64,000 bases of DNA from Arctopsyche grandis (lineage: Eukaryota; Arthropoda; Insecta; Trichoptera; Hydropsychidae): contig NC_135358.1 in assembly GCF_051622035.1 (NCBI RefSeq), positions 24,308,501 to 24,372,500 on the forward strand, written 5' to 3'. Below, piece by piece: positions 4,125-35,700 of the stretch. Position numbers and translations under genes: made by a program. Position 1 is the first letter of the stretch. The number at the start of each line of letters is the position of its first letter. The notes beneath the pieces were generated by a model. That model made no database searches, was not told where the DNA came from, and saw only the letters and a program-made list of their open reading frames with translations.

Positions 4125-4474
4125 GGTGAGAGGGTGTCGTGGAGCGTCAGCCCCAGTCGGGGGGCGCAGACCCAATTCTCACCGGTATTATTACTCATGC
4201 GTAAACAGCGGACAACAGTCACACTGACACAATTACTACTACCAGTTGCCACTCCTACTCAACAGTGAGCTCACGCTTGACTGATTTGAGCAAAGCGTCG
4301 GTTGCACAATCCTACTATTTTGACTACATATTGTGCAATATCACAACGGCTTTTCTTCTCACTTCAGAATTGGCGATTTCAGTGACATGATAATATAGCG
4401 ATTTCCTCGACTATATCTATATAGTATATGAAATTAATACAGTAGTCCCTCGTTTTCTTCGGGGGGTTTTGTGT

Positions 4475-4750
4475 TGACCAGTTTTCTCGTGACCAGTTTC
4501 AGCGTGTGACCAGTTTTCTCGTGACCAGTTTTAGCGTGTGACTAGTTTTCTCGTGACCAGTTTTAGCGTGTGACTAGTTTTCTCGTGACCAGTTTTAGCG
4601 TGTGACTAGTTTTCTCGTGACCAGTTTTAGCGTGTGACTAGTTTTCTCGTGACCAGTTTTAGCGTGACGGATGATCACGAGTGACCGATCTAGAGCGACC
4701 AGTTGTCCTGTGACAGGTTCACATTTGACTAGTAATCACCGAACCGTCTA
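4475..4750. repeat. Tandem array of GACCAGTTTT-type units ending in a fold-back half element
   Basis: About five tandem copies of a roughly 34-base unit, each combining GACCAGTTTTCTCGT and GACCAGTTTTAGCGTGT, lie at about 4475-4670. They are followed by a tail (4671-4750) containing CGATCTAGAGCGACCAG and TTGACTAGTAATCAC. The same tail ends the inverted repeat at 11668-11952, so this is a single arm of that family with an expanded internal unit. Confidence 0.8.
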
Positions 4751-4752
4751 CC

Positions 4753-5112
4753 TCACGGGCCGGAATGTGAAATGCCGGAAAACGCAAATATCGGAAGGCA
4801 AAGATCGAAAATCGAAAGATAAAAAAGAGGGTGCATGGTAAACGGTACATACTCACTTAATTTGCGCGAGCAGGATACAACAGGAACAAGAGGAACAGGC
4901 TTTTCCTCCCGTATTAATGTGCGCGCGCAGAATACGGGAGGAAAAGCCTGTTCCTCTTGTTCCTGTTGTATCCTGCTCGCGCAAATTAAGTGAGTATGTA
5001 CCGTTTACCATGCACCCTTTTTTTTGATCTTTCGACTTAAGATCTTTCGATTTTCGATCTTTGCATTCCGATATTTGCGTTTTCCGGCATTTCACATTCC
5101 GGCCCGTCACGG
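4753..5112. repeat. Long near-perfect palindrome (arms about 165-180 bp, 15-nt spacer)
   Basis: The left arm (about 4753-4915) and right arm (about 4931-5112) are reverse complements over nearly their whole length, separated by 15 bases at 4916-4930 (AATGTGCGCGCGCAG). The right arm carries about 14 extra bases near 5035-5050. The outer arm is built of short CCGGAA/CGGAA-containing phrases. A transcript through it would fold into a very long hairpin. A minus-strand reading frame across this region (4853-5266) is a by-product of the repeat and is not called as a gene. Confidence 0.9.
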
Positions 5113-5560
5113 AGACCGCATTCGGGTATGCATTTGGACCGAAGGTTGACATAAAAAACCTATCTGGATAAAATATAAATAACAAAATTTTAAGTTCGGG
5201 AAGCACCACTGGATAATCAGATATAACCATAGAAGTAGGATGCATAGAATCGCTCTCAGCCTCCAAAAAATGTTGCTACAAAAACTCTGCGCGGCAGAGT
5301 TTGTTCATTGTTTGTTAAACTTCGTCTCTCTCTTCTGACTTTCCGTCTCTCTCTTCAATGACTCGTTTTTAGACAATACTTTTGTTAACAATGACCATTC
5401 TATGCATTCTACTGCTATGGATATGACTCACCATTGGCGCCGTCCACACACACGATATCTACATATCCAGTTCCCATATTGCAACCTGTGGTTGCTATTT
5501 AGGAACTGGTTATGGAAAATTGACCAAGGAGAACAAACTTTTAGTATAAAAAGCTATCTG
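5113..5560. other. Spacer without a firm gene
   Basis: This stretch between the palindrome and the Etfb promoter region has several short open frames on both strands but none with a convincing start, splice sites and family match. On the plus strand a 34-codon frame rich in Pro, Ser and Thr (about 5400-5505) is interrupted by a stop and could be a decayed exon. I did not recognise it. Confidence 0.3.
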
Positions 5561-5955
5561 CTAACTAATAAAACTACAAAGAGGCTCAAGCGAAGAGACC
5601 CCTGGATCTGGTGAAGTGCCAACCACAAGCCAAGAGGAAAGAGAACAAACGTGATAAATGTTCTAAAAAGGACAGAAGTATCATAAAACAAGATGAATTG
5701 CGGAAACAAACAAAGCAATTTGAATATAAACGTTTTGATTCACTAATTTAACAAATAAAAGCAAATTACCTTAGATATCATTACGCTACGAAGTTGTTTT
5801 TTGAAGATAATGTCTGATTGTAGATCTGTATGCACTTTTGGAAAATTTTCACACATTTTCATTTGTGGTGGCAACATTTTTATGAGAGTAGGTGTGGCCA
5901 CACTAGCTGTCATTTGCTGTGGAGAGTTGGAAGTAGGTGTGTGGTGTTGATTCAT
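5561..5955 (-). CDS. Possible two-exon small gene divergent from Etfb (uncertain)
   Basis: A minus-strand exon runs from an ATG at 5955 to 5770 (62 codons) and ends at a good donor (AAG/GTAATTT). A pyrimidine-rich acceptor (CTGTCCTTTTTAG) places a second exon at 5662-5561 in the same phase, giving 95 aa in all. The N-terminus is rich in Thr, Ser, Pro and Gln; there is no signal peptide or known domain that I recognise. Its ATG lies only 15 bases from the Etfb ATG on the other strand, so both genes would share a very compact promoter and overlap each other's 5' leaders. The second exon is weak, because the opposite strand is also open there. It could simply be the Etfb promoter with a chance frame. 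Confidence 0.28.
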
Positions 5956-5970
5956 CTTTGAGGCTTGAAA

Positions 5971-7826
5971 ATGTCACGTGTGTTGGTCGGTGTCAAACGA
6001 GTCATTGATTATGCAGTCAAGGTATATATTTACACCTTTCAAATTATATATTAAATTACGATTTTCACTCACATTTCTTCAGATATTACGTCTGGGTTCA
6101 AAGGTTGTTACCATTGTTTGCTTCAGTTTTTATGTAACAATTTAATATTTTGATTGCTTCGATTCATGTTGTGCAACCAATCTGTAATAATTACAATTGA
6201 AGCCACTTGGTCGATCGTTTTAAATTTGTTTAAGTTCCCATTAATTGAATATGTAATAGTTTTTGTATATATTCCGGCCACTGGAATAATTAGTTTTACT
6301 TCATTTAATATTAGGTCATACTATGACCTTTTAAATTACATTACATTATTTATTTTATATTATATTACTATATACATTGTTTTTGTTTAAGGTCCGTGTT
6401 AAGCCAGATAAGACTGGCGTTGTCACCGATGGAGTTAAACATTCCATGAATCCTTTCGATGAAATCGCCATAGAAGAAGCGATACGCATGAAGGAAAAGA
6501 AGTTAGTGTCTGAGATAATTGCAGTTTCGTGCGGTCCAGCCCAAGCTCAGGTAAAAATTGTCGTAAGGTTTTGTTATAGAAATGCAAAATTTAACTATGT
6601 AGTATTTAATATATGAAATAAATAATAAACTAACAGATATACCTGGCGTTGATCTAGTTTATAGTAATTTTGGGTGTTTAAAGGTGGAAAAGCTCTTGTT
6701 TCTTTAATAACTTTCCATGATCGTGATGAATCCATCGATACATATAGTTGTTTTGATTAACATGTAAATACATTTATAAAAAGTTTATATTTATAAGATA
6801 GATCTAACAGATTGTAATGACCTCAATTATTACATAGCTTGTATGCTGGTGTAATTTATGAAATGTTAGTCTGTAATATTAACATGATAAGAATAATTGT
6901 ATATATGTACATATGTATAGTTTCTTTGATAAGCGATATCTGTTGAACTTTTTTTATAATTTGACTTTTTTTTATTATTTGTGAGATATACGCATAATAC
7001 ATACAAATGAGTGATATAAAAAACATTATATTTATTAACCCTTTTGATAATTTAAGGACACCATTCGAACAGCTTTGGCAATGGGAGCTGATAAAGGCAT
7101 TCACGTAGAGATTTCGGGAAGCGATTATGATACTTTACAACCTATTCATGTCTCTAAAATACTTGCTAAGCTCGCTCAAGATGAAAAAGCCGATTTGGTA
7201 ATCGTCGGCAAGCAGGTAATTTGATTATTATTCACGGATTGTTGTTTGTTGTAAATGGTATGTTTTAACCATTCTTTTCTGTATAGGCTATTGACGATGA
7301 CTCCAACCAAACTGCACAAATGACCGCAGCTTTATTGGATTGGCCCCAAGCTACTTTTGCATCAAAAGTAAATATTTGTTCTATTAAAAGTTTAACAAAT
7401 TATTATGATATAAATATTTGTAATAATAAATACTTTGTAGGTAGACAAAACTGATAGTGGATTAACGGTCACTAGAGAAATCGACGGCGGACTTGAAACA
7501 ATTAAATGTAAAATGCCTGCTGTTATCAGTGCAGATTTGCGGTTGAATGAGCCAAGATATGCCACTCTTCCCAACATTATGGTATTTTTAATACTTAAAT
7601 GTTAATATGATGTATGGTTTATAATGGATTTTAATAAAATATTTTTATCGAACAGAAAGCTAAGAAAAAACCTATCAAGAAAATCACAGCCAAGGATCTA
7701 GGAGTAGATACTACTGCTCGTATAAGAGTTGTTTCTGTAGAAGAACCACCAGTAAGACAAGCAGGATCGATTGTTCCTGATGTGGATACCCTCATCGCTA
7801 AGTTGAAAGAAGGAGGTCATGTGTAA
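5971..7826 (+). CDS. Etfb: Electron transfer flavoprotein subunit beta
   Basis: Six exons join with GT-AG introns, all in phase 0: 5971-6021, 6392-6550, 7057-7215, 7287-7367, 7441-7581, 7656-7826 (stop TAA at 7824). The product is 253 aa, against about 255 in human ETFB, so the gene looks complete. It starts [20 protein letters not shown] and contains the family signature with [20 protein letters not shown] and VSCGPAQAQ (FAD/AMP-binding fold). In mitochondria the ETFA-ETFB dimer accepts electrons from acyl-CoA and other flavin dehydrogenases and passes them to ETF-ubiquinone oxidoreductase. No cleavable presequence is visible, as usual for the beta subunit. The 3' end faces the DCAF10 homologue. 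Confidence 0.97.
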
Positions 7827-8584
7827 ATTTTTTAGTGTAAAATTTGCAGAGATTATAATTCAATAATTAAAAAGTTTAACATAATGTACATTGGAATATT
7901 TTGCAGTGTATGCATGTACATATAAAATTTATTTTGGTTACTAAATGTTGATTTAATATTTTTTACATTGTTTTTATTTCGTTATTTATCTGAACTGTAT
8001 CTGCCCTTATAGTATAAATGTAAATATCAAATACATTGTTTTGTGGTTATGTACTGAATAATAAGAAAAGTTAAAGAATTATTCTTTGTGTTTGTGATAG
8101 TCGGGAACATTATGTTATAGATATGATAAAACAAATGTTCAGTACAAATTAAAATTTATTACAATAAATATTATAAAACAAAAAATCGCTTCAAAAAGAT
8201 CAATGGAAACAATAACTTATTAATAATTTAGGATATTTGCGTGATTATTTTAAATGTTTAGTACCCATATGTATGTATGTACATACATTATATAAATGTT
8301 TTCACCATAATTTAATTTTAAAGTGACCCATACAGCTATATAAATGGTTTCCGTAACTTAATAGTTATTTTGAGGCTTACATTGTAAATATTTAATAAAA
8401 AAATCTTAAACCATAAGTAATTATTTGATACATTGCAAAGAAAAAAATGAATCGAATATGAATAATTACTAAATTTAAAATTGATCTTTAATGCAATAAA
8501 AAAAGGAAGCATCAGAATGAATATAAAGACGCATCATACATAGGTTACAATAATGATGAAATATTTTCAATATACTTTTTAAAA
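7827..8584. other. Convergent 3' ends of Etfb and the DCAF10 homologue
   Basis: This gap of about 760 bases should hold both 3' untranslated regions. An AATAAA lies on the plus strand at 8163-8168 (candidate for Etfb) and another on the minus strand at 8155-8160 (candidate for the DCAF10 homologue), so the two transcripts may end almost back to back or overlap. No gene was seen. Confidence 0.45.
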
Positions 8585-11210
8585 TTAAGCACGAGGTTGA
8601 TACCAAATAATCCTTCCGCTGAGACATCCAGTAGCCAACATGAAATGTCTGGGACTAAATTTGGCAGTTACAACATAATCGTCGTGGTAAATACTTTTCC
8701 ATAATTCCGTTAGTGCTACTGGATTGTTGGTTTTTGGAACGCATGTTGGCAACTCTGAACAATTATCTGTGAAACTCAACAATCGTACTCCGTAACCGTA
8801 TGGCGAGCAAACGAGACGACCATCAGCCGAGAAACATAATTCCTGAAATAAATCGCCAAGTACAAGGTATATTACAGTTATTGTTTTGATATGCAATACC
8901 TAGTATATTGGATTACTACCTTTATGAAACCTTTTCCAACGTTAGGTTCTTGAATATAATACAGCAATCTTTTTTTGTTTTGTAAAACATTTCGTCTGGT
9001 TTTAACTTGGTTATTTTCGCTTGGAATGCCGTCATATTCGACCACGAGAGAATTGTCGTTGGACGAATTAGATGAACTGGATGAACTGCGAGAAGGTTGT
9101 GCAACCCTGGAAAAGATTTTTTTTTTTTGTACACTTCAATAACAATTATAAACAAGTGAATCGATTTTAAGAGTCAATACAAAAATAATTTGAGAATTTG
9201 GTGATAGATAAATTTTTTATTTAAATCGTTTGAAATTTGACCACAAATAAATTAAGTTGAATCCAGGTAAATGTTTGTTTCAGTTACCTATCGCGATTCG
9301 ACAGGAAAGGTGGAACGTTTGATAAAGAATCATTGTCTAATGGTATACTAATACCGGAACTGATTCCCGTGATATGTTGCATATTGAAACCTCTATTCGT
9401 TTCACCTCTATAATTAAAAAAAAATGGGAGATATATCAAACACACATTTTAGATTGAAATATTGATTAAAATTTTCATGAAAAATTACCTGAATGATAAA
9501 TCTAACCGGACTCTTTGCTGCCTTACAGATAACAAGGCTTCCCATACGTCATTTTGACTTACCACAGATGATGCCTGAAATACATAGTTAACATAGTTTT
9601 TAATCTTAATTTTCTGTGTACACAACAGATTAATCAATAAATTACATACCCTTCGACTAGTATTAGATGAAGGCGAATTTCTAGTGTTGACATTTCTTCT
9701 AGGACGAATCGGCCTAGCAGGTAATTGCCTAGTATTAGTTTGTCCTGAAGTGTTCTGAGCTGCAGCTCTCCCCCTGGCAGCTGCTCGTGTAGTTCTACGA
9801 GTAATTCTACTTGATGTACGGACTACTACTTCTTCTGATTCGTTGTCTGAATTATCACCCTCTTGTATGTCGTGAATACATGTCCACTATGAAGCATATT
9901 AATAAACCATTAATTTAAATCAATGCTAATAAGAGTATTTAAATTTATTCTAATCATTAGTTATGTATTTATTATTAATCTATACCTCAGATTTATCACC
10001 TTGGCTAATATTTCGACTCAGTGCACACCATCCTTGTGGATGGATCTTAAAAAATAACACTTTTTTAAAAAAATATACATAAAAATGTCTTATTATATAC
10101 AGAAGATAAATTTGAGTTTACATACCTGTAGAGAACTAACAACTTGTGCATCATTATTTTTCGGAAAATCGCTGATGAATTCAACTCTGTTTCTTTTCCT
10201 ATTTGAATCAAACAAATGGTCATACATTGCAGCTATTGGAAGATGTTGCTTTGTCATTTGCATTAGTCGATACATATTAGGCTAAATGAAAAATACATCG
10301 TATCATTATACATATGTACATAAATGATCTATGCATACACGTTTCAATATATGCACAAGTGCTATTTACTTTAAATCCATGCAAATCTTGAGCCATAGTC
10401 GACAGATTTAATTTGTGAATTATTATTATGAGTCCACCGGTAGTACACATTACGAGTTGGCTAGCATCGGGAGATATACGACACCTCATCAATCCTGGTG
10501 CATGAAACACTCTTTGGTAAACGAAGCCCCATTCTGTGTACGAGTTGATGTCCCACGTGTAAATACTACCATCAAGCCCAGACGTAACGAGTAATTTATC
10601 TTTAACTGAGTATTCTATATTTTTCACCCAATTTGAATGACCTTGTAGAGTTCGTATTGGGCCTTGTAAATTTCGTGCGTCCCAAAGGGCAACTGTTGTA
10701 TCGTCCGAGCATGTTGCGAATGTTCTCGTGTCTAAAAATCTAGTACAAAACAATTTTTTTTATCTGAATAATATTTGTTTTATTATGGTGTAATATGAAA
10801 TACTCACTTTACATAGTTAACACAATCCGAATGAGCATTGTTAACATAATAAACTTTTTTGTATGTTAATGGATCTATAGTAAGTATGGAATTTTTTTCA
10901 CATGCTGCTACTAAGAGAGACCTAAATTTGAGATTTGAAATGATTTTTTTGCCCAAGGTATAACATAAACAATATATAAATTAATCTCATTAAAAAATTA
11001 CCCATCCGGAGAGAATTCCAGATTGAAAACACCACCATGCATGAGTCCGTCCGAATCTTTCAAAGCATCCCACTGTGCACACAGGCTCATAGAAGAATAT
11101 AGACTCTTTGCGAAAGTGTCTCCAGCTCCAATTGGCGGAGCGAATCCGAGTTCGCGTTGATAAGCCCATAGGGCATTATAAGCGCCATAGTCCTTGGCTA
11201 ACAGTCTCAT
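8585..11210 (-). CDS. DCAF10: DDB1- and CUL4-associated factor 10 homologue (WD40, WDR32)
   Basis: Ten coding exons on the minus strand: 11210-11002, 10921-10808, 10739-10370, 10281-10126, 10045-9986, 9886-9650, 9574-9489, 9407-9288, 9106-8920, 8842-8585. All junctions keep frame and give about 598 aa. WD40 repeats fill about residues 55-235 (NAHSDCVNYVK, FATCSDDTTVALWDARNL, GHSNWVKNIEYS, TSGLDGSIYTWDIN). A low-complexity Arg/Ser/Thr-rich middle (about 300-490) follows, then a C-terminal propeller blade (PNVGKGFIKELCFSADGR, GCLSGRIIWYQP). This split-propeller pattern matches DCAF10, a substrate receptor of the CUL4-DDB1 ubiquitin ligase. The start is the first in-frame ATG (11210). The frame stays open upstream to a stop at 11246-11244, so an upstream exon cannot be excluded. 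Confidence 0.9.
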
Positions 11211-11667
11211 ATTGGTTTTTTCGTTCACATGCAGTCGTATCTGCTACGTATGTTGATTCTGGTAATGCACATTTTTTTTATATTCAGATGACAAAATAAA
11301 TTTGTACAAATGTAATTGGCATATAGAACAATATAAAGGAGATAAATAAATTACAAACTCATCCAAATGCGAATTGCAGATCTCAATAAACGATAACAAC
11401 AATAACGTGAAATATACGAGCGTACGTAAATGTCAAAAACAATGTTGCTAGTGTCATATCCAAACTGCTGCCAACATAGGATTAATTTTTATTACTGATC
11501 TGTTTTAAATAAACTTGAAATAGGACAACGATTGCACAAGAACATCATTTGGGTAGAGGGGGGGAGGGGGGCATTTTTCCCCCTTAGATTTGACCAGGTC
11601 AGGAACATGCATGTCATTTGATGAAATACTGTGAATCCTAATTAAATCGATTATTCGTTACTAAAAG
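11211..11667. other. Upstream region of the DCAF10 homologue
   Basis: This region must contain the 5' leader and promoter of the minus-strand DCAF10 homologue. A G-run (GGGGGGGAGGGGGG type) lies near 11556-11572. No other gene or clear promoter motif was identified. Confidence 0.3.
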
Positions 11668-11952
11668 GGTGAACGGACTACTAGTCATATGTGAACCAGT
11701 CACAGGACAACCGGTCGCTGTAGATCGGTTACACGTGATCATCCGTCCCACTAAAACTGGTCACGCGAAAACTGGTCACACCCTAAAATCGGTCACGAGA
11801 AAACTGGTTAACCGATTTTAGGGTGTGACCAGTTTACTTGTGACCAGTTTTCTCGTGACCAGTTTTAGTGTGACGGGTGATCTCGTGTGACCGATCTAGA
11901 GCGACCGGTTGTCCTGTGACCGGTTCACATTTGACTAGTAATCACTGAACCA
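11668..11952. repeat. Fold-back repeat of the GACCAGTTTT family
   Basis: The two halves (about 11668-11806 and 11812-11952) are imperfect reverse complements meeting at GGTTAACC near 11807. Each arm reads outward from units such as GACCAGTTTTCTCGT and ends with CGATCTAGAGCGACCGGTTGT and TTGACTAGTAATCAC. The same outer arm is found at 4671-4750, which makes this an interspersed family. Confidence 0.85.
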
Positions 11953-12107
11953 CTAAGAGCTTAGCCCAGGAGAAGCTGTAACAACGCCCTCACGTTTTAT
12001 GCCGGTCTCCCTGTTGGCGCATGCACACTTTATCTCAGTAACTAGTTAGCTTCTAAGTCAGAAGGTCGATATTGCATAGATATTGTGGAGATCTTGTCGT
12101 CACTAAC

Positions 12108-12230
12108 TGAGGGGTGCGGGGGGTTTAACTAGCGGGGAAGTTGGGAAAAAAAACGACGACCGCTGCGTCGTAGGGAAAAAACCAATTTTTTTCCCAACTT
12201 CCCCGCTAGTTAAACCCCCCGCACCCCTCA
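12108..12230. repeat. Perfect 44-bp inverted repeat
   Basis: Arms 12108-12151 and 12187-12230 are exact reverse complements, beginning TGAGGGGTGCGGGGGG and ending at runs of A/T. They are separated by 35 bases containing CGACGACCGCTGCGTCG, which is itself partly self-complementary. The element lies between the DCAF10 homologue and Gcn2. The exact match implies either recent origin or ongoing arm homogenisation. Confidence 0.85.
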
Positions 12231-12767
12231 ATTAATGAAGACAATATCTCAGACCAAAAGCAGGCGTCAGGGCCCATCTATGTATTATATATCTATGGTA
12301 ACAACTTCAAAATGTTGATCAGACGCTTCTTCCAAAAAATTAAAAATTGACCAACTTTTACCCCTCGAAAAAAGTTAAAATGAGGTCCCTGCGATTGCAT
12401 CGAATAAAAATTGATGATAAAATATTATATCGCTATTAATTAGTCGTCAACAAAAGCACCATCAAGGGCATTATACTATCTTCCCAGAAATGTTCTGGGA
12501 TTATTTTTTTTTACTTTGAAACCCAAGTGGACACCGATCAATGACTGTTGTATGACTAAGCGACTGTAAATAACTAAAGCCAAAGGAAAACATTCGGTGA
12601 AGCGAAGTCGCAGCAGTAGTGAGAATTGTTTCCATGCGGCATATGGCCATGTTTGGTAAGATTAGGGGAGCTGTCACTATCCCGACCGCATTTAGTACTG
12701 GGAAGTGAGTGGGAGTGCTGTATAGTGAGGGTAGTGTTTACGCGAACAGGTGTTGTTGTTGTCTGCT

Positions 12768-22574
<9,807 letters not shown>

Positions 22575-23059
22575 TCTGTAATTTTCTATTTTTATTTTTA
22601 GATTTTCTTTTAAGTTTTTTTAAATAATAAATTTAATTTTCCTTTTAAAAGTGCCATTGATTAAATATGCATTTATTTGAAATTAAATATGTTCTGATAT
22701 TTATTTGTTGATTATGTGTGTAAAATTGTTTTATGATTTTTTTTTAATATGTGTGTATTTTTGTTACGTTATTGTTAAGTTTAACGTTCCTAAAACATTT
22801 TAATTGAATGTCAAAAAGGAAATGGAGGTGCTTCTAAACAAAGACATTTATTATAGAAATACTTTTTCATAGTGAAATATTTTTGTAAAACAATATATGT
22901 ATGTACCTAAGTATATTATTGATGTTTGAAACATAAATTTATTTTTTATTTATTTAATGTATTGTAAGATGTATGAATAAACAATGAAGCTTTATTGTGG
23001 TCTATGGTTGGTTTTTAGCAATATAATTTTTATGTTACTTTAGTGCACCAGAGTGGTCG
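22575..23059. other. Tail-to-tail 3' ends of Gcn2 and the SLC3A2_N-like gene
   Basis: AATAAA on the plus strand at 22976-22981 is the best polyadenylation signal for Gcn2, about 400 bases after its stop. AATAAA on the minus strand at 22991-22996 lies 64 bases after the stop of the small minus-strand gene. The two transcripts therefore probably end within a few tens of bases of each other or overlap. No further exon is visible here. Confidence 0.55.
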
Positions 23060-23455
23060 TCATTGACTTAAATGACTCGGATACAATACAGCTTTATCAA
23101 AAAAATTATCAGTCACCACGGTTTTGTTAGACGGGGTGCATTGTGGCGTGATTACAATTATCATGCCAGCACCTACAAACATCGTCAAAAGGAGCAACCA
23201 AAAAGTGAAAGCAAGGATCCCTCTGAGCCATTTCCAGAATGGGTCATTTTCTAGAAATAGTAATTCTTCCTTAGTGAGGCCAGGCGGTCGTCGAATTTTA
23301 TCTCTAGAAATTATGTATATTTAAAATAATTTTATTTGATTTTAAGTGTGTGAAAATATTTTTATATTGACTGACCTTGTATTTGGGATAGTATAGCAGT
23401 TTGCTATATCCGAATTTTTATTAACAAGGAGTGGAATACTCTCGTGGGTGATCAT
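23060..23455 (-). CDS. Two-exon 107-aa membrane protein, SLC3A2_N (CD98hc N-terminus) only
   Basis: Exon 1 is 23455-23376, starting ATG ATC ACC and ending at the donor AAG/GTCAGT. Exon 2 is 23303-23060, after the acceptor TTTCTAG, ending in TGA. The junction keeps frame and gives 107 aa. Residues about 35-83 align with the conserved N-terminal segment of CD98hc/SLC3A2: PPGLTKEELL, then NDPFW, one hydrophobic helix (AFTFWLLLLTMFVGAGMIIV) and a juxtamembrane cysteine in ITPQC. In human CD98hc the equivalent cysteine forms the disulfide with the amino-acid-transporter light chain. Normally about 400 residues of glucosidase-like ectodomain follow; here the protein stops 24 residues after the cysteine, and only 485 bases remain before Gcn2. 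It is either a stand-alone stub gene or a truncated paralogue with intact splicing. The frame is open for about 30 codons upstream of the ATG, so a longer N-terminus is possible. Confidence 0.72.
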
Positions 23456-23959
23456 TTCAGTGCACCAATATTTCGAGTGTTGATGGTTGAAATTCGACAC
23501 GTTTGTGAATCGAGTCCTATATGAACGAAAAGATACATTGAAATCTTAATCATAGCTTGAAGCACCTGACCTTTACTCTTAATTTTTTTTCCTTTAAGAT
23601 ATCACGTATTTATTTGCTTACTAAACATTTGCGTTTAAATCAATATTTAAGCCTAGTTTTATATCTAAATTCAAATTGACTGAATAGCTTATTGTTTATA
23701 TGATTAAAAAAATGTAAATACATATACGTATACAAAGCATTTTGAACAATGAAGCAGAAATATCGCGTAAAACAAAGGGATTTGATATTCTGAAATTGAT
23801 TTATTTAATAACATACATACATACATATAATATGTATGCCTTTTATCAGTCAAGGCTGTCTCATCTATCAGTTAGTCTGATTTTTGGCATTAAGTGACCC
23901 AGGAAATGAATATTCACATCTGATGTAAACAGAAGTACACAATTTGTCAAATGGTTTCA

Positions 23960-24489
23960 TTAACCGGCGTTGATCGGAGTTTTGCCAATAAGTTCATGGG
24001 CCTGAAAAACGACGATAGGCGTTGTATTTTGAGCACGTACAAAGTAAACTAGAATACTACCCGCTAAGCCTTTCTAGGCAGCATTAAAAAATCGTGTAAT
24101 TCATGTAATTCATTTGTCAACGTTTATAAAGACTGGTTTACACCGGAATTTCTAAATTTATAACCAGAGCAGAATTTCTCGATGGAAATCCCTAACTGCC
24201 GAGTATTTTAGATTGTGGCTTGGCATTTAGATTGTGAGCATTACATTTTAATGACAATGAAGAAGATGGAACTAGTTTTGGAAAAATACATTCATTAATA
24301 GACTTGTTTTGTTTATCTTATATTGTTGCAAGATATATTAGAGAGTCTATAACACACCTTTACAAAATTCGAAATCTTCGGCGGTAGTTATGTAGGGTTT
24401 TTTTGGATTAGCTACAATTTTTATTTCTAAATTTCTAAATAATTCTAGTTGGAAATGTTTGCAAAAAACGTCAGCACTCAAAGGGTTAA
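23960..24489. mobile_element. Possible piggyBac-like MITE (one good end)
   Basis: The right boundary reads, on the minus strand, TTAACCCTTTGAGTGCTGACG, a TTAA followed by a CCC-starting end as in piggyBac elements. A left TTAA at 23960-23963 is followed by CCGGCGTTGATCGGAGTTTTGC, which resembles the other end only loosely. There is no coding frame inside. The size of about 530 bp is inferred from this pairing. Confidence 0.35.
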
Positions 24490-24690
24490 CACTATATTTA
24501 AAGTGTTTTTTTTTTTTTTTTTTAAACTGATTTTCTGTTGATATGTACACTATGTAACAATAAAAAAGTCATGTACATTTATAAATAGTTAAATTTATTA
24601 ATAATAAATAACAAAATAACATATTATGATCAACATCAATATATAATATGCTCATTCGGTATTATATACACATGTATATATACATGTATA

Positions 24691-24692
<2 letters not shown>

Positions 24693-24767
<75 letters not shown>
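24693..24767. repeat. (TA)n microsatellite
   Basis: An uninterrupted TA run of about 75 bases, flanked by ATGTATATA variants. Confidence 0.95.
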
Positions 24768-24775
<8 letters not shown>

Positions 24776-26974
24776 GTACATATATATAGTGCAATTGCAA
24801 CCAATATATTATCGCACTGCATTCTTTGCAAGCGGTATCTAACAAGAGGGATGATTTTATTTTAATACAAAATAATAGATTCATACGAAAAAAAATTAAT
24901 TAATGTGATCAATAAACAAAAAAAAAATAAAACAAGCACTCTTAAAAACACAAAATGGTAAATACAATATTCAATATAAACATAAATAAATAATTACATT
25001 CTCCAATAGGCCTCATCGATAATAATAAAAATTAAAAATTAAAAAAACGTATTATTTATATATACATGGGAGATTATGTGTATTGGTTTTCAGTTGCATA
25101 TATGATTTTTACAAACATATACATACAATGGATAATATTACACCGATCTTGACCGACAGGCCGGAGTGACATTGAAAACAAAACCGCTTGCTTTCTCTCA
25201 ATTATTCTTTCATCTCTCATAATAGTACTCACAAACCAACACGCATCGTAGCCTTTTTTTTTCAAAAATACACTTTTATTATTCATTTCAAAAGTAAATC
25301 TCTAACAAATTTGTAAATAACAATATAATAATAGTTAAAAGAAAAATAAGAATGCATAACCTATATACAAGTTTTATTAGATTTGTTCAGACATTGTTAC
25401 AATCGTTTTATATTTTTTATTTGTTTGACCTCGAATAAGTTTCTTTAGTATGATACGGATCTCATATTTCTTCAGATGTCTAAAGTTAATATGTATGTAT
25501 TTGGTTTGGTTTAGGTAAGATTAGTAAAAATGTTCAAATACATTGAGTCATAAAACATTTACTGCTATATTAATTATTGTAATTTCACACAATTTCTGAA
25601 TAGTGTATGATTGGATAAATTGATCAGCGTCTTAAAATGTTTTATAAATTATGGATTAGTTTAGAAAATATGAAAAGAAAATTAAGGATAACGGAAGTCC
25701 ACTATTCTTCATTATGAGAGATATATCTCGCAAAACATTAAATATAATGTTTTGCGTTTTACAATATTTAAAAAATACTCATGGCCTGTTTATTTAAGTT
25801 TATTAAAAGAAGTGAATTAAAAGAGTTTGAAATATTGATCCGTAGTGAATATAAGTTTTGAAAAAAAGAATAAAACAAATCATTGTTAGACATTGTCTGA
25901 ATAAATCTTGAACACATCTCTTAAGCTATTTTGACTAGCCACCGCCCGGCGGATGGAAGAATAGCTGTTAGTTTTTGGATTTTTTCGATCATCAACTCGG
26001 CACACACTCGAACATGCATATTCTACAATGCGGACGGCAATAGTTCCATCTTCGAAGCATCAACGCTTAAAAACTTCAGTCAAGTTAAGTTGAGAGCGAA
26101 AGAAACGTATCGACGAGCGCATCGTATAAAGTCATGTAGTCGTGTAGTGTCATACATATATTTATAAATATGTAAATCATTTTTATCAAATAAATAACAT
26201 CTATTCTACTGATACATAAAATTATGGCATTACTTTACAAATCGTTACAATAAATTATACTTTAATTAACGATTTTTATATATGTATATGGTTTATATCA
26301 TATAACAATAAAACAAACATGAGCGGGGAATCGAGGAATAAGACAGGACGAAGAGAGGAAAAAATAGATTTTACACATCGGAATCGCTGCACAATTGTAT
26401 CGAAGGCGTTCAATGGTTGGAATGCGCAAACTCTGCAAGATTATTATAATTATACAATTGCATTTTTTGATTGATTTCGTCTATCGAGAAAGGTATGTTT
26501 AGCAGCCATGCCCATATGTTGTGAATACAAATATCACTTAGAAATTAACATTATAGAAAACTATCGTAAAATCGAGGATAAAATGCACGGGTCGTAAAAT
26601 TACAATAAAAATAAAAATATATAGATAAAAGCTTCGCGGTGTGATGTTGTTACAACCTTTCCATAAATATTTGATAAGGTAAACATAAAAAAATTAAAAA
26701 ACGAACACATTTAAATGTGAGAAAAATAATTGGACGGAAAATCGTCATTTGTGTGCGAAAGATTTATATGTATCAATATAATAACTTTTGTATTAAATTC
26801 GAAATATACATACATGTTTCTTTATGGAAAGGCAAACAACAATATCTACGTTGTGATTATTAATAATATAAAATCAAAGCACAATAGTAATAATATAATA
26901 TTAAAAAAAACCTTATTTACAATCACGCTTGATAATCATTGCGATTTCACAGTAACATTCTGGTGTCTTTTCGC

Positions 26975-26978
<4 letters not shown>

Positions 26979-27047
<69 letters not shown>
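26979..27047. repeat. (TA)n microsatellite
   Basis: An uninterrupted TA run of about 69 bases. Confidence 0.95.
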
Positions 27048-27050
<3 letters not shown>

Positions 27051-27195
27051 ATATCTACATTATGAAGTTAGTATGTAATAGGATTAAAATAACGATAGCA
27101 GATACATTACAGATATACAGTGAAACCCTTAACGTAGGTTCGGTTTAAACACTGTACGCTTGAGCGCTAAAATTAAATGTCACTGAACGTATTAC

Positions 27196-27374
<179 letters not shown>

Positions 27375-27451
27375 CATACATAACAGAAATTTAAACATTA
27401 AAATATTCATTATATTTTTAATAATATTTATGGAAAGTCTAAAACATTTAA

Positions 27452-27454
<3 letters not shown>

Positions 27455-27521
<67 letters not shown>

Positions 27522-27535
27522 CTTCATTACATATA
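27455..27535. repeat. (AT)n microsatellite
   Basis: An AT run of about 70 bases followed by ACATATAC and ATATATG variants. Confidence 0.95.
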
Positions 27536-27699
27536 TGTATATATGTACATATAAAAATAATGTAGTATGAAGTGTGTTATGTTTCAATTAGTTTTTTTTT
27601 CTTGAAGGTGTGTTAAGCTTGTTTGTGAATCTTATTTAACAATACACATATATGTATACATATGTAATTGCTTTTAATTATTCATTTAAATTATATATG

Positions 27700-27790
27700 T
27701 GCCCATAATTATGAAAGTGGTCTTTAAGCGATATTAAACGATAAAATCGACTTTTTTTCTTGACTTAGACCACTTTCATAATTATGGGCA
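27700..27790. mobile_element. 91-bp MITE-like inverted repeat
   Basis: Perfect 24-bp arms: 27700-27723 (TGCCCATAATTATGAAAGTG then GTCT) and its reverse complement at 27767-27790, separated by 43 AT-rich bases. The flanks are TA-rich, so a TA target duplication cannot be shown. Size and arms suit a very short MITE of Tc1/mariner type, which is inference. Confidence 0.6.
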
Positions 27791-29789
27791 TATATATATG
27801 TATATATGTATAGTAGTATGTATGCTATAATTAGTTACAAGAGTACTTAAGAAGTTTGAAGATAGATATACATACAAGCAACGTACAATGCTAACGAATG
27901 ATTTGCTATAAGATGTAATTTCAAAAAACTATTATTCTATACAAAAAATTGGTACTTGACAATGATTTTGGTTTTTTAATTTACTTTTAATTTGATTCTA
28001 AGTATATGCATATGTAAATAAATACATACATACATATATGTATATTTTTCAATACTTTGAGACATCTAGTTTAAAATTGTGATACACATGTTGAGATCTA
28101 TACAGAAAGAGATATCTATAGAAATACATAGAGACTGGTCAAGATGTGTGAAGACTACAGCATTTGTATTTTGAATAATTATTTGGTTACAATTAAATGT
28201 AGTTTCGAATTAGTATTAATGCGAGAAGTATTGTTTAGAAAGGTAATACAATAACAATAATAATATAATAGCCAAGTATTTAAAATCACTAATTTAGTTT
28301 TGGGATTAACATTATCACAGTACACATAATTGAAATTGCAGTTTTCGATCAATTTCGCACAGTTCCGTACATATATTTTTGAAATCTCTTTCCGATTGCA
28401 GTTCTTTATTTTATTACTTCTTTGTTTAAAAAGATTACACAATTTTTTAGTTTTGTACAATTATAGAACCAAGACTTAATGGTAAAAAAACTATTGTAGT
28501 GTAAATTTTAAAAATTGTTCGTTTTTTTAACTCTTCCTTGCGTTACGTTTATTTATTTGTAGGACGTACATACGAGTCCCAAATTACTAAACTCTAATGT
28601 GTCATTGTATATTACTCGTTTTTAATTATTAATAAAAATTATTCATCGCGCTAACCTCGAAATGTGGCCGAGATATTATATTTTATTATTTTTGTGTCAA
28701 AATCAGTCGAAATACAATAATACATGTATGTATTTTATTTTTATTATTTAATTATTTTTTTTAATTTCGGAATAAATCTAACTACGTCTAATAAAAACCA
28801 TACAAATACTACGGTATTTGTAAACTTTTCCAAAAAATTCAATATTCAATAAAAGAAAACGTAACAAGTAATAATAATTAAATAATGAAGAGGTTCCAAA
28901 TGTGATTTTTAATACCTGCCTTTTGTTCGACCAATGAAGTGAGTCTGTATATTATTTTGATTGGTTTTATGTGAAATAAAATAATTCTGATGATATATTT
29001 GTATTTCAATAGTAACGTTTATACATACATATGTAAATTAAAATATATGTATATAACACTTTGCACCATAGCCATGGCTGTGTTCTTTGCACGAGATGTA
29101 AGCAAGTGCAGGACAGTTAATCCCCTAATAATTTCACATACATATTCAAATATATATTCTATTTTTTTTATATCAATGTGTCATTCATAATCTCTTTTTA
29201 TTTATTTTTGCAATTAATTACATACTTCTTTACATTTTCTGGTCAAATCTTCTTCATTTTCACTTGGTCAATACGATTCACCACGTTTATTCTTTGAAGA
29301 GACGGGTCCCTCGCGATGATATGTGGATTTTTAGATCGCACGTTTTACACATATACACATAAATCTAATATTTGTTAAACCGCCGGCGAGTAAAGTGTTC
29401 CTGAAAAGTAATGTATAAAAAAATACATTTTTAAAAGCAAATAACCAATCGGACTATAAGTAGCCAGTATAATGTCTCAAGTGCAATAAAATAAATTTAA
29501 TTGTCGAATTAACAATTTTTACGCTGAAACACTTCGTCGACGTTGACCAAATCTGAAGTTCAAATATGACACACTTGATTTTATATGATGGATATAATTT
29601 TAATCGAATAAATTCGATTTAAATTAAGTAAAATGGTAACTAATCCATTCAAGAGTTTTTGATATTAAATATTACATCGGTATGATTACAAAAGAAAAAA
29701 AAAACGATAAATTATAATTTTAATATTATTTTAAATATGTTGCTTTTTCTTTTATTATAATATATCATACATATATATATGTAGGTACT

Positions 29790-32700
29790 TTAGAATCCTT
29801 CGATGTAATCGTAGGCCTCCAATGTAGACAGGATCAGGTAGATAAGCCAAAGGCCGAACATGAACGCAGCCGTTATGTACTTAAGTGTGACGTCTCCTCC
29901 GAGCTCACCACCAATGGATTTGTGCCTTCTAAGTAGCAGTATACAAATTGTGACCATTGCTTCTGAGCAGAAAATGGTCACTGAAAATGCGAGGCTGAAA
30001 ACATATATTTCAAGTTTAGGTGGTGGATATCTTTACTGTAACATTGAATTTGACCAAATAAATATTATATATGTGGTATGTACTCACTTTCCGGGATCAA
30101 TGAGGAACTTATTTCCGTGAGCGTTGTGATAGATAGCAGCTATGGACCAAGCGATACCGATGCCCAAGAAGACGTTGACGGCATTACTGCCTGTTACGTT
30201 ACCCACTGAAGCATCTGCGTATTTGTCTTGAATGGCGGCAACTTTGCTAGCAAACGTATCTATTGGAACAAATACATTATGTAATGAAATTAAATGTTGC
30301 TATTAAATATAATTATAATTTCATAGTGCATAACATTATAGAATAAATTAAATTGAAAGTATCTAATTTAGATTATAAATATTGAAGGATTATATTTATT
30401 AAAATGTAAATAAAATTTCAATGGCAATGTTAATATTATATATGGTTCTTTTGTGTCTTCTTCTTCTATCGAATATATACAGATAAACGTTTGTTTGTTG
30501 GTTTGTCTGCTATGCACATCTACAGCTTTTAATTTAGAATCATCATACATACATATATCCATATTTGTTATTCTCGATACTCTAACTTAGTCCATTTTCA
30601 ATCTTTTACAACCTTCATATAGTACTATAATTTACTAGCCGGTGTTGCTTGGGCTGATAATATTAAAAGGAAAAACCTTTCTAAGAGTTGCAAACCCTTC
30701 CAAATACCGTTTACAGTCTAAGTTAGGCTATAATATACCAAATTTGGTAGATCGAAGTTGAAAATTGTAGATTTTCAATATGGATACACAAACATTCATT
30801 TTTAGATATTATTAAAATGATTTGGATATAATAAAATTTATATTTTTCATTGGTACCCTTAAGGGTTGCCTCTGAGTGGCACCTATGGTACAAAAATTGT
30901 ACATATAAAAATTTATGGATTTATAAATTTTGAAATTATATTCAAATATTGGATGGTTTAGTCAATTTGATGAGGAATCGTTTCAATAATGAAATCAGAT
31001 ACATTGGCAAACTCTGATAGGAAACGATCGACTTTTAGTCTTTTAGTCACAAATATCCAAGTCTGACCAGCAGCACTACATAAATTATTCCAAATAAATT
31101 CTTTTCAATCCAGGTCAACCCAAGTCTTGAACCCGGGGACCTCACAGTGGTTAGGATTAACGAAACCACTGAGCTATACTGCTGGCTAATAAATGGGGAA
31201 TTATTTAATATATTATACATATATTATTGATTTTGGTTAGTATAAATATTTTAATAAATTAGTCAGTATATGGAAGTTAGGTTGGTTTACCAAAGACACT
31301 AACCAAATAAATATTTACCTGATAAAATTATATAAACATAATCGCATCAACCAAACAATATTTATGACAGAAAAAAATTATTCTCAACAGCAATATCGGC
31401 CATTCATTTTTGTAGACACTTGGGGGAAATGTGGGTTGTTGTTAGTTTGGCTATAGGAATACGAGTTGGATTGGTGCCCATACTTTATAATCTTATAATA
31501 ATTGAGCTCAGACCTGGGATACTGGTGCCGAGGGCCACGAAGACGATGGCCGTTACTGAGTCCTTAATGCCTAAGGTGCAGCCAAAGTGTGATGCAACAT
31601 CACCGATGATGGCCGTCACCACACCGATAGACAGGATAGACACAACGAAGCAGAGATACCCACCGGCAATATCTGAAATTTAAAATATTTATTAATATCA
31701 TTATAATTTTACCCTTACATGATATATTGTACATATGTATATGCACGTACATAAATATATCAAATAAGATTTTCTTAAATACCACATCTAGTAGGTAGAT
31801 ACATATGCACATATGTATGTATATGCATATTGAACTGGGAACATTTGTGCTATACACAGATATTGCAGATATAAAATGTTATATCAGCGCTCCTCGAAGA
31901 AGAAATATGGAAATAAATGGAAAAAAAGCATCCTCTGGCATTCGGTGCAGAAAGTGTGGAAGTCGGAAACTTTCGTGTCGAGAAAACTCAATTCGAACGT
32001 ACATATCATATACATATGTACATATGGTCGTTTTTTTTTTCTGAAAAGCGAGCTTCGTTTTGGTGAGTCGAATCCAATATCGACATTCGCATGGGAATCC
32101 AATCACCGAATCTGATCAGAGATTGGATTCCCAATTTATATGTTTATATAATATAATATACATATAAATATGTATGTAATATACGTACATATATTAAAAA
32201 GATTTCATATCCCAATAGTGAGTTAGTTTAATTGCTTTATATAATGAATTTATGTTGTTAGTAGGCTATATTCTCTTCAATTCGGTATTAGGCAAGCTTC
32301 GAGAATGTCAATAGAAATTACTTATGGACATTTAATATGAATGAAATTATTTTCTTATACAATTTCATCATTTTTTTTTACATTCCAAGGTTTTTATATG
32401 AAATCAATATATTATATTCGGGTCGTTGAATAAACTCTTTGTTTCTGTACTTGTCTCGTCGGTTTGGTACTGGAAGTATTTGAAAAATGTATAATTCATT
32501 CAAATGAATTAAAAACACAATATATGCAATTAGCTGTTATAAATAGAGGTAGGACCGGAAGCGTGCTTTTTCCAGGAATTAGAGTGTTTTGGGTCTATTT
32601 ACAGAGCTAGAGTGCAAACAAAAGGTTCATCATAAAAATGAACAAAGCACGGCGAACAATTAACGGTGAACGGAACGCTCCCGGTCCTACCTCTAGTTAT

Positions 32701-35700
32701 AAGCATAAAATTATAAATCTTATTCAAAATTGATGACAAATTATATGAAGTAAAGAAACGGAGAGTTCATTTAACGAGAATTGGTGAAACCAGGCCTTCC
32801 GATTGCATTCATAGTATGATTATAGCATTGCATTCATGGTGTCAAAAAATTGAAAAAATATTAAAGTTCATTAATATCGTAACTTAATGAATTTCAATAT
32901 TTTTAATACAATTTAAATGTGCATTGAAAAAATAATTTTGCTCCTAAAAACGAATTATTTGTGGATTTAGAATAAAAGAAAATACGCTTGATTTCTAGTG
33001 CATTAAAAATTATTTCCAAAAAAAGATTTATTTGCATTATTTATGAAAAATATACAATATTTTTAATGCAAACTTGTTTTATTTAATACACATTTAAAGT
33101 GTCCCCTATATAAAATATATTTAAGTGTAAAAGCAATCGCATTATATTTACGAAACAATAGTTTAAAATTTGCATTTTTTCATCATTCGAATTTTAATTT
33201 ATTTCTGTCTATAAATTTTTTAAATTTAAAAAGTAGAATAAAATATATATTTTTTTAAAATCCTCATCTAAAACATAGTTCGAGTCATACTCGAAACCGG
33301 GCTAAAACGATACTCAAATAAACGAAAAAATATATTCAATGATTATTTCATATTTGTATGTAATTATACATACATATACAGTATACACGTATACTTTATT
33401 TTTAATGAATTGGTATTCCGTTTCTTATGCAGAGAGAAACATTTCAGTAATGCAATGAAGCTTTATTAACGAATACAAAACAAATTCTGGAGACGACAGA
33501 ATGTGAAGTGGTAAAAATAGATAGAGAAATTTTCTCCGGAATCGTCATCACAATCGAGTCGTATAAAATTGGTAAATATTGACGGGAAACGGGTAGAGTT
33601 GAAGCTATTATGAGTCCATTTAAATCTATTAAGTATTTAAAGACATTTCACTGACAACATACGAATGTACATATGTAATAATAGTGAGTTCAGTTACGTA
33701 ATTAATCGGCTGTATACACAATTTGTGACATATTGACGCGATTGCCATGCAAATGTCGTCGACACGCATATGGTGTAATGGCCAATGTATGTAAATAAAG
33801 CGGGCTGGAAACAATTGGCCCGCAAGCTCTGCATTAATAATAAGGTTGATTAATTAATTACCTAATCGTTTGAGCGCCACCTGAACCACCGCGTTAAATT
33901 GACACGTGTGGTTTAAACGTTACGACGCGTAAAGTTAGGCTCTGAAATAATTTCAATTATAAATCGCATAGAAAATATACATAAGCCTCAATCGAAAATT
34001 TTCCACATCTTCAGTGATAGCGTAGCTCTTCTGAGTGTGTTTTCTGAGTACGCTATATAATGAAAACATGACGAGGAACATGGGGCTCGTTGTTTACAGA
34101 CGTCTGTTTATTTTCAGCACTTCAGCTGGATTTATTCGTCGACAGGCGACACGGAATTTAATTCGTTCGAACCGATGCACTGAAGCGTGAGTAGGATATC
34201 TTCAACATTAGTCTGATGGTGATTAATCTATTGATGGTTAAGAACGGACAATGCGAAAATTTCAGTCGAAAAATCTCTTCACAAATACATCCACTTGTTC
34301 AAAAAGAGAAAGTAAAAGCTTTCATTAAATAGTTGAAGTTATGGAAATCAAATTTACAAAATAATGAGTTGGATATGTTTTCACTTTCCAAAGATTTCTG
34401 GGCCACAGCCAATATTGAAGCAAGTAAAAATCTTTTTACTGACCACTTGGATGGTTTAGTGCTGCATTTTTCCAATTATTTCAAAGACCTTGATTTCTCA
34501 AAGTTTTTGTGGATACAGAATCCATTTAACTACAATGAAAAAGAAGAATTCGAGCTGACAACGATCGAAAAAGAAAAATTGATAGAATTATCACGCGGTA
34601 GCTCACTAAAATAAAAGTTTCAAAATGAAACCATAATCAAATTTTGGATGAATCTTAGTGGAGAGTATGAATCTTTGTATTGCAAAGCAATGCAAGTGCT
34701 TCTACCGTTTGTAACGTCTTATTTATGCGAAACGGGCTTTTCGGCACTAGCTGCAATGAAAACCAAAGTCATCGAGCCAGGTAAAGGAAAGTCGAAAAGG
34801 AGTTACGAGTGGCACTCTCTATATTGCCCCCAAGATTTGATAAACTTTGTGCCAATAAACAACAACATCCTGTGCGTTAAATTTTGATGTGTTAGATGTA
34901 GTTTAATTAGTAATTTAATATAAAAATAAATATACGTGTTCGTATAAATGTTATAAAAAACCTTTTTATTATTCTGTCTATTGTAGTGTTCAGTATTTTC
35001 TTTTTAAATAAAGGTTTATTATTTAAAACGTGTCTATTAAAAAATAAAAGGCAGGGAGGCGTGGAAAAAAAAAATTTTTTTAGGGAGGCGTAGTAGCATA
35101 AATTTTGGAAACCGCTGGTATAGTGTATAGTGCAGTAGCGTATAGATAATTGAAAATCAATATAAATTGAATATTATGTACATCGGTAAGAAAATTTGTA
35201 AAAATGGAACCGAGCTCTCATCTTGACTATATGTACTTTATGCTATACACCTATCAGCTCGCCCTCATTAAAATGTGATATTTTTGATGAATTTAAACAA
35301 TAAAAATTTTCATTCGGCCAAATATCCGTCGGCCTAGTATCCGTTCGGCTAAGTGTCCATTTGGCTAGATGTCCGTCGGCCTAATGTCCGTTCGGCCAAG
35401 CGTCCGTTGGCCCAGTGTTGCTATATTTCGGAAAACAAAACGTACTTCTATGGATAGCATATTTTAACGGTGAAAGTGAATGCAACGGCAAATAAGCATC
35501 GGAATTTCAAGAATAAACAGAACAATTTTCATCTGCGGCGTTAAATATAATATAATTGGCTAAACATAATTATTGTAAATCTGAGTTTTTATTAAATTTA
35601 ATTGACACTTATTTTTGCACAAGATTTTATTTTTATAAATCCATAAATCATGGTATGGGCTTCAATTTAGCGTCGAAAGTCGGAGTCCCCTCTATTTTGT

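Follow-up and report, generated by a model that had tools for sequence, protein, structure and literature searches.

A two-exon gene of the caddisfly Arctopsyche grandis coding for a CD98hc-type membrane anchor for which no ectodomain was found

In heteromeric amino-acid transporters the heavy chain applies its membrane helix to light-chain helix 4, and a disulfide links the two in the neck (PMC8537225). How much of the heavy chain such a pair requires is a point on which the papers disagree: human LAT1 is said not to need the ectodomain (PMC8537225), whereas PMC3125211 states that LATs in general do need it, citing work in which loss of only 68 C-terminal residues disrupts their delivery. (Truncation work on human 4F2hc enters here solely through these two papers.) According to PMC3125211, the cytoplasmic and membrane parts of mouse CD98hc are required and sufficient for association with integrin beta1; a mouse protein whose last 102 residues are replaced by a fusion is mostly intracellular, yet binds integrin beta1; and CD98hc-null ES cells are rescued by a chimera whose extracellular domain is foreign. 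Such engineered or gene-trap truncations resemble the locus described below in presenting an anchor without a complete ectodomain, and with them delivery is reported to depend on the light chain; they are, however, laboratory alleles (mouse delta-CD98hc-beta-geo, which lacks only the last 102 residues and carries the fusion, being an example), whereas the present locus would be a natural gene.

Among insects, a table in PMC9823048 gives Drosophila one SLC3 gene, and the same paper names five light chains, four of which it tests. A sandfly survey describes a single CD98hc, which has the SLC3A2 domain, and a single NBAT heavy chain, which does not (PMC8063059). The sandfly NBAT (LlNBAThc) is, like the locus considered here, a second heavy-chain-like gene, but with the reverse composition, as NBATs carry the GH13 part without the SLC3A2 domain; moreover, that survey started from GH13 genes (PMC8063059) and would miss a gene consisting of the anchor. 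Among the titles and abstract openings listed by literature searches no stand-alone SLC3A2_N gene appeared, and the Pfam name of the domain retrieved no paper; this is a weak negative for such a gene, as subscription journals lie mostly outside the literature covered. Protein databases do hold automatically named short SLC3A2_N proteins, and the gene may have been annotated earlier under a name of this sort.

Here such a gene is examined within a window of 64,000 nucleotides (C4:24308501-24372500) of an A. grandis assembly that comprises 475,669,232 bases in 189 contigs. It is confirmed that the minus strand of the window holds a two-exon, 107-residue frame encoding an SLC3A2_N anchor, for which no ectodomain was found. 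This gene (termed here the stub) is real and is probably a functional, ectodomain-less relative of CD98hc. Its features, in window coordinates, are as follows.

23455-23376, minus strand: coding part of exon 1, 80 nt, with the ATG at 23455-23453; residues 1-26 and two bases of codon 27
23375-23304, minus strand: intron, 72 nt, GT-AG (GTCAGT...TTCTAG), phase 2
23303-23060, minus strand: coding part of exon 2, 244 nt, with the TGA at 23062-23060
23120-23284 (C4:24331620-24331784), minus strand: SLC3A2_N domain, residues 34-88, Pfam 60.4 bits
23222-23224, minus strand: codon of Arg54, aligned with the arginine just before the membrane helix of human 4F2hc (183 in 6jmq_B numbering)
23150-23221, minus strand: membrane helix, residues 55-78, from hydropathy and alignment, with bounds set by eye
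23138-23140, minus strand: codon of Cys82, aligned with the juxtamembrane cysteine of CD98hc
23115-23117, minus strand: possible splice donor GTG/GTGACT, 7.04 bits, last exon base 23117, at the site of intron 2 of the full-length gene
22996-22991, minus strand: AATAAA, a possible polyadenylation signal at 64 bases from the TGA

A first-pass annotation of this DNA had described two exons with good splice sites, joined in frame. This is borne out: the joined frame of 324 nt encodes 107 residues and a TGA, in-frame stops lie upstream of the ATG, and the exon 1 donor AAG/GTCAGT scores 9.08 bits on a generic matrix of the author's own making, which also served for the other donors mentioned below and on which it exceeds eight of the nine donors of the full-length CD98hc gene of this genome. 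The intron likewise matches several introns of that gene in length (72 versus 72-77 nt). Three candidate upstream exons within 6.7 kb combine the correct phase with an ATG, at least 5 codons and a donor of at least 5 bits, the exon at 23455-23376 being both the nearest and the strongest. Translation and hydropathy likewise bring out the PPGLTKEELL and NDPFW motifs, the one membrane helix and the juxtamembrane cysteine of that annotation; a stop does follow the cysteine in frame, but after 25 residues rather than the 24 it had counted. The minus-strand AATAAA that it placed 64 bases downstream is also present, though in AT-rich DNA, and it is weak evidence for a 3' end at this position.

The identity of the domain is clear from profile comparison, the check that the annotation had proposed: Pfam SLC3A2_N (PF16028) matches residues 34-88 over profile positions 14-68 of 77, at 60.4 bits (E 1.3e-16) against a gathering cut-off of 27 bits. 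A phmmer search of solved-structure chains (E up to 1) returned 11 distinct sequences, nine of which are human 4F2hc/SLC3A2, matched over residues 34-83 at E values from 3.2e-5 to 6.6e-5; the other two are a tau chain, which aligns with a different part of the query (E 0.0036), and a pilin (E 0.93). As in SLC3A2 heavy chains, a single membrane helix follows a GLTKEEL-type cytosolic helix, and a juxtamembrane cysteine occupies the aligned position; the large GH13-like ectodomain of alpha-amylase fold that characterizes these chains is absent from the frame and was not found nearby. Only one segment of the stub is strongly hydrophobic, with its Kyte-Doolittle peak (2.38) at residues 60-79. The extracellular part of these heavy chains is N-glycosylated; the stub has one sequon, NKT at residue 86, about 8 residues beyond the membrane helix. 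In view of the Pfam E value of 1.3e-16, the single-copy status and the codon-position pattern (see below), a chance open frame or misread repeat was rejected as having next to no probability; the AT-rich surroundings are the only point in favor of that reading.

Genome-wide, a six-frame, exon-by-exon search of the 475.7 Mb with SLC3A2_N found two places: the stub and C13:10930744-10930923, which scores 106.9 bits. The latter belongs to a complete CD98hc gene with its ectodomain, which, in a model assembled by eye, has ten exons joined at GT-AG junctions and runs to 580 codons with the stop counted (579 residues). The stub DNA matches the genome once, namely to itself, and is thus single-copy; the stub protein (E up to 10) finds nothing beyond the two exons that encode it and the anchor exon on C13. 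The full-length protein gives 26 matches at E up to 1, consisting of its own exons, the stub anchor on C4 and loci on C5, C10, C12 and C13, these last loci overlapping alpha-amylase (PF00128) matches. Outside insects, pattern searches for relatives of the stub in viral contigs and prokaryote genomes gave 4 and 31 matches, respectively, and for alignment A1 gave 103 and 181, none of either set being confirmed, a result that speaks to viruses and prokaryotes only; a plasmid collection gave no match, and none of these collections bears on conservation in insects.

Within the anchor, the stub is identical to the full-length C13 gene of this genome at 25 of 49 residues and to human 4F2hc at 23 of 49. 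The full-length chain and human 4F2hc have 31 positions in common, of which the stub keeps 20 and differs at 11, including, within the 49-residue stretch, V17, R18 and W21 (the V-R pair and the tryptophan at the cytosolic end of the helix). Identity to the full-length chain varies by region: it is 14 of 20 in the cytosolic helix and 9 of 23 in the membrane helix, and of the six residues that follow two are identical. Invariant among all three chains are GLxKEEL, P.W, Arg54, FWL, GA, IIV and Cys82. For human LAT1-4F2hc, R183 of 4F2hc is reported to hold a lipid at the interface (PMC11065870); judging from the alignment, Arg54 is likely the counterpart of R183 in the 631-residue numbering of 6jmq_B, the 630-residue numbering giving the next residue. 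The stub thus shares with CD98hc/4F2hc the SLC3A2_N anchor, with its GLTKEEL helix, membrane helix and juxtamembrane cysteine; it differs from the full-length chain in having no ectodomain, another N-terminus and a 25-residue tail after the cysteine. Also different is the intron that precedes the anchor: in the stub it is in phase 2, seven full codons before GLTKEEL, whereas in the full-length gene it is in phase 0, three codons before. This difference in place and phase fits a partial duplicate with a new start.

The two anchors can be compared over 49 ungapped codons, where 25 of the 49 residues are identical, as are 25 of 49 bases at first, 37 at second and 15 at third codon positions. dN is 0.47-0.48; dS is not computable by counting and, at a likelihood estimate of 17.9, is saturated. 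Third positions look saturated while second positions are kept: by these codon patterns, the anchor was under protein-level selection for most of its history. Simulated neutral decay, in which today's full-length gene stands in for the ancestor and base frequencies and transition bias were chosen by the author, gives a similar picture. At 0.8 and 1.0 substitutions per site, none of 5000 runs each keeps 25 identical residues, and third positions are still 48 and 42% identical, respectively, versus the 31% observed; at 0.5, which places half the change on the stub, 25 residues survive in 57 of 5000 runs, and in 5 of 5000 stops are absent as well; and at 0.3, 2743 of 5000 (about 55%) keep 25 residues and about 7% (at most 549 runs) are also free of stops, but with third positions 73% identical, again versus 31%. 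Hence neither mark of a pseudogene--a disabled frame or a lack of protein-level selection--was seen, as the frame is intact and the codon-position pattern is that of a protein, although a very recent loss of function could escape both. This test averages over the whole past of the anchor, and does not discriminate between a long-established stub and a full-length paralogue truncated only lately.

No alpha-amylase-like exon, such as would extend the gene downstream of 23060, was detected. Three pieces of the window (13098-23059, 22998-32960 and 3138-13099) were searched against Pfam in three minus-strand frames each, with stops read as X; SLC3A2_N itself and, on the plus strand, the kinase and RWD domains of Gcn2 were recovered as positive controls. 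From 23059 down to 3138 in the three minus-strand frames, at E up to 1, there was no match except at a WD40 gene and a WSC/fibronectin type III gene. By tblastn, the full-length chain matches the window at the anchor (8.5e-9) and then only with E above 1, and a whole-genome search with the same protein found on contig C4 nothing but the stub anchor. Alpha-amylase (PF00128) has 36 matches in the whole genome, of which the single one on C4, at 36.28 Mb, lies 11.9 Mb from the stub and is not matched by the full-length CD98hc protein. The first-pass annotation's central claim, that of a gene coding only the CD98hc anchor, therefore holds as regards the SLC3A2_N anchor, the lack of a detected ectodomain the existence of a separate full-length gene and the mark of selection on the anchor; expression, the 3' end of the mRNA and the pairing with light chains that the annotation had proposed are putative, so that its interpretation is supported in part.

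The tail bears on how this gene is to be read. In the full-length gene the second intron (phase 2) comes right after the juxtamembrane stretch, and at the same place the stub has a donor-like GTG/GTGACT, which scores 7.04 bits versus 5.42 bits for the intron-2 donor of the full-length gene itself. Since this donor-like site stands where the full-length gene has its intron 2, the 18 codons between the donor at 23117 and the stop, that is, the last 18 residues of the stub, may be former intron turned coding. If the donor were instead in use, the anchor exon would be part of a longer gene that splices at 23117 to unrecognized exons encoding a diverged ectodomain or some other extracellular part. 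This is improbable: downstream on the minus strand as far as 3138, Pfam matches occur only at the WD40 and WSC/fibronectin genes (a wholly unrelated exon would escape such a search), Gcn2 lies there on the opposite strand with its last frame ending at 22574, and only the anchor of the full-length protein is matched on C4. The same donor-like site, at the start of the tail after residue 89, would also be expected of a recently truncated or dying gene, that is, a full-length paralogue that, after being under selection for most of its history, lost its ectodomain exons by deletion and whose relic now reads into the old intron 2. As the selection signal averages the whole history and does not date the loss, this reading keeps some weight, but we consider it unlikely: the reading frame and its start codon are undamaged, as are the splice sites and the invariant residues of the anchor, no ectodomain remnant appears in the 20 kb of minus strand downstream (Pfam) or in the window (tblastn), and the difference in upstream intron place and phase (phase 2 versus phase 0) fits a gene that was rebuilt at its 5' end and then kept.

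A different question is whether the main partner of the stub might be an integrin beta rather than a light chain, as the cytosolic part and anchor of mouse CD98hc suffice, according to PMC3125211, to bind integrin beta1 without the ectodomain. To this we assign only a slender chance, given that the stub has kept the light-chain cysteine, that what precedes its cytosolic helix is short and does not resemble the N-terminal part of the full-length chain, and that CD98hc function in Drosophila neuroblast tumours is reported to seem integrin independent (PMC9823048).

The reading that we favor, to which about an even chance may be given, is that the stub is an old partial CD98hc paralogue whose product, a heavy chain devoid of an ectodomain, has SLC7 light chains as its partners. 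As to how it arose, is expressed, ends and pairs, and to what effect, we infer from sequence the following. An old partial duplication would have left the anchor exon with a first exon and a short tail that are both new; the product would be a 107-residue type II membrane protein, whose cytosolic and membrane helices would lie against an SLC7 L-type light chain, with the usual disulfide formed through Cys82, so that the resulting transporters would lack the glucosidase-like ectodomain. The outcome would differ between light chains: the stub would either deliver its partner (as reported for human LAT1) or keep it from the full-length chain--the latter being expected for LAT2- and y+LAT2-like light chains--and would thereby tune amino-acid uptake. 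More specifically, it is conceivable, though on balance doubtful, that the stub is a natural, selected micro heavy chain, next to Gcn2, that sets amino-acid uptake by competing with the full-length chain for L-type light chains. If the favored reading is true, a natural heavy chain that has long lacked an ectodomain would reveal for which light chains the anchor is enough and offer a genetic handle on insect leucine uptake and TOR signaling; if the stub is a relic, it is ordinary.

Candidate partners exist in the genome. At least 15 matches to AA_permease_2 were found, with 27 of 41 candidates scored. A light-chain pattern for the stretch after the cysteine occurs at four of the 15 loci (L037, L041, L044 and L045), and a pattern for the cysteine itself, applied to six of the 15, matches the overlapping L044 and L045, which share one exon that reads WPACDPP, but nothing in the remaining four; L044 and L045 also show one unrelated frame each on the cysteine pattern. 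Human light chains have a cysteine at the place matching WPACDPP. A light chain with the partner cysteine is thus encoded in this genome, and a disulfide through Cys82 would be the predicted link between such a chain and the stub.

Judged from the predicted genes around it, the stub sits in a space of its own between Gcn2 and a Na/Ca-exchanger gene. Gcn2, the sensor of amino-acid starvation, is adjacent to it on the plus strand (about 13909-22574), with kinase and RWD domains over the cut-off and tRNA-synthetase-like (HisRS-like) and anticodon-binding domains below it; the frame taken to be its last exon ends at 22574, so that the two genes lie tail to tail with 485 bp between their stop codons. 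Upstream of the stub, the exons of the Na/Ca-exchanger gene (Na_Ca_ex, 50 bits; bounds by eye) are at 29790-31679 on the minus strand.

Several minor observations concern the rest of the window. Near 17.4 kb Gcn2 has roughly ten consecutive aspartates, and beside its last frames repeats around ACAAAATGTACCCGCG were seen by eye at 21600-21740 and 22160-22430. The WD40-repeat gene has exons, with bounds set by eye, at 8588-11243 on the minus strand, where WD40 matches, and plus-strand exons at 6335-7823 look by eye like the electron transfer flavoprotein beta subunit. An open frame of 748 residues (1932-4178, minus) matches WSC and fibronectin type III, and a membrane helix and a part resembling a kinase were made out in it by eye; we take it to resemble an insect WSC receptor kinase. 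Finally, a repeat-like stretch encoding CMVNGTYSLNLREQDT in one frame was seen by eye both at 4856-5275 of the window and at positions 240-440 of L001, upstream of the full-length CD98hc gene, and is probably a dispersed element.
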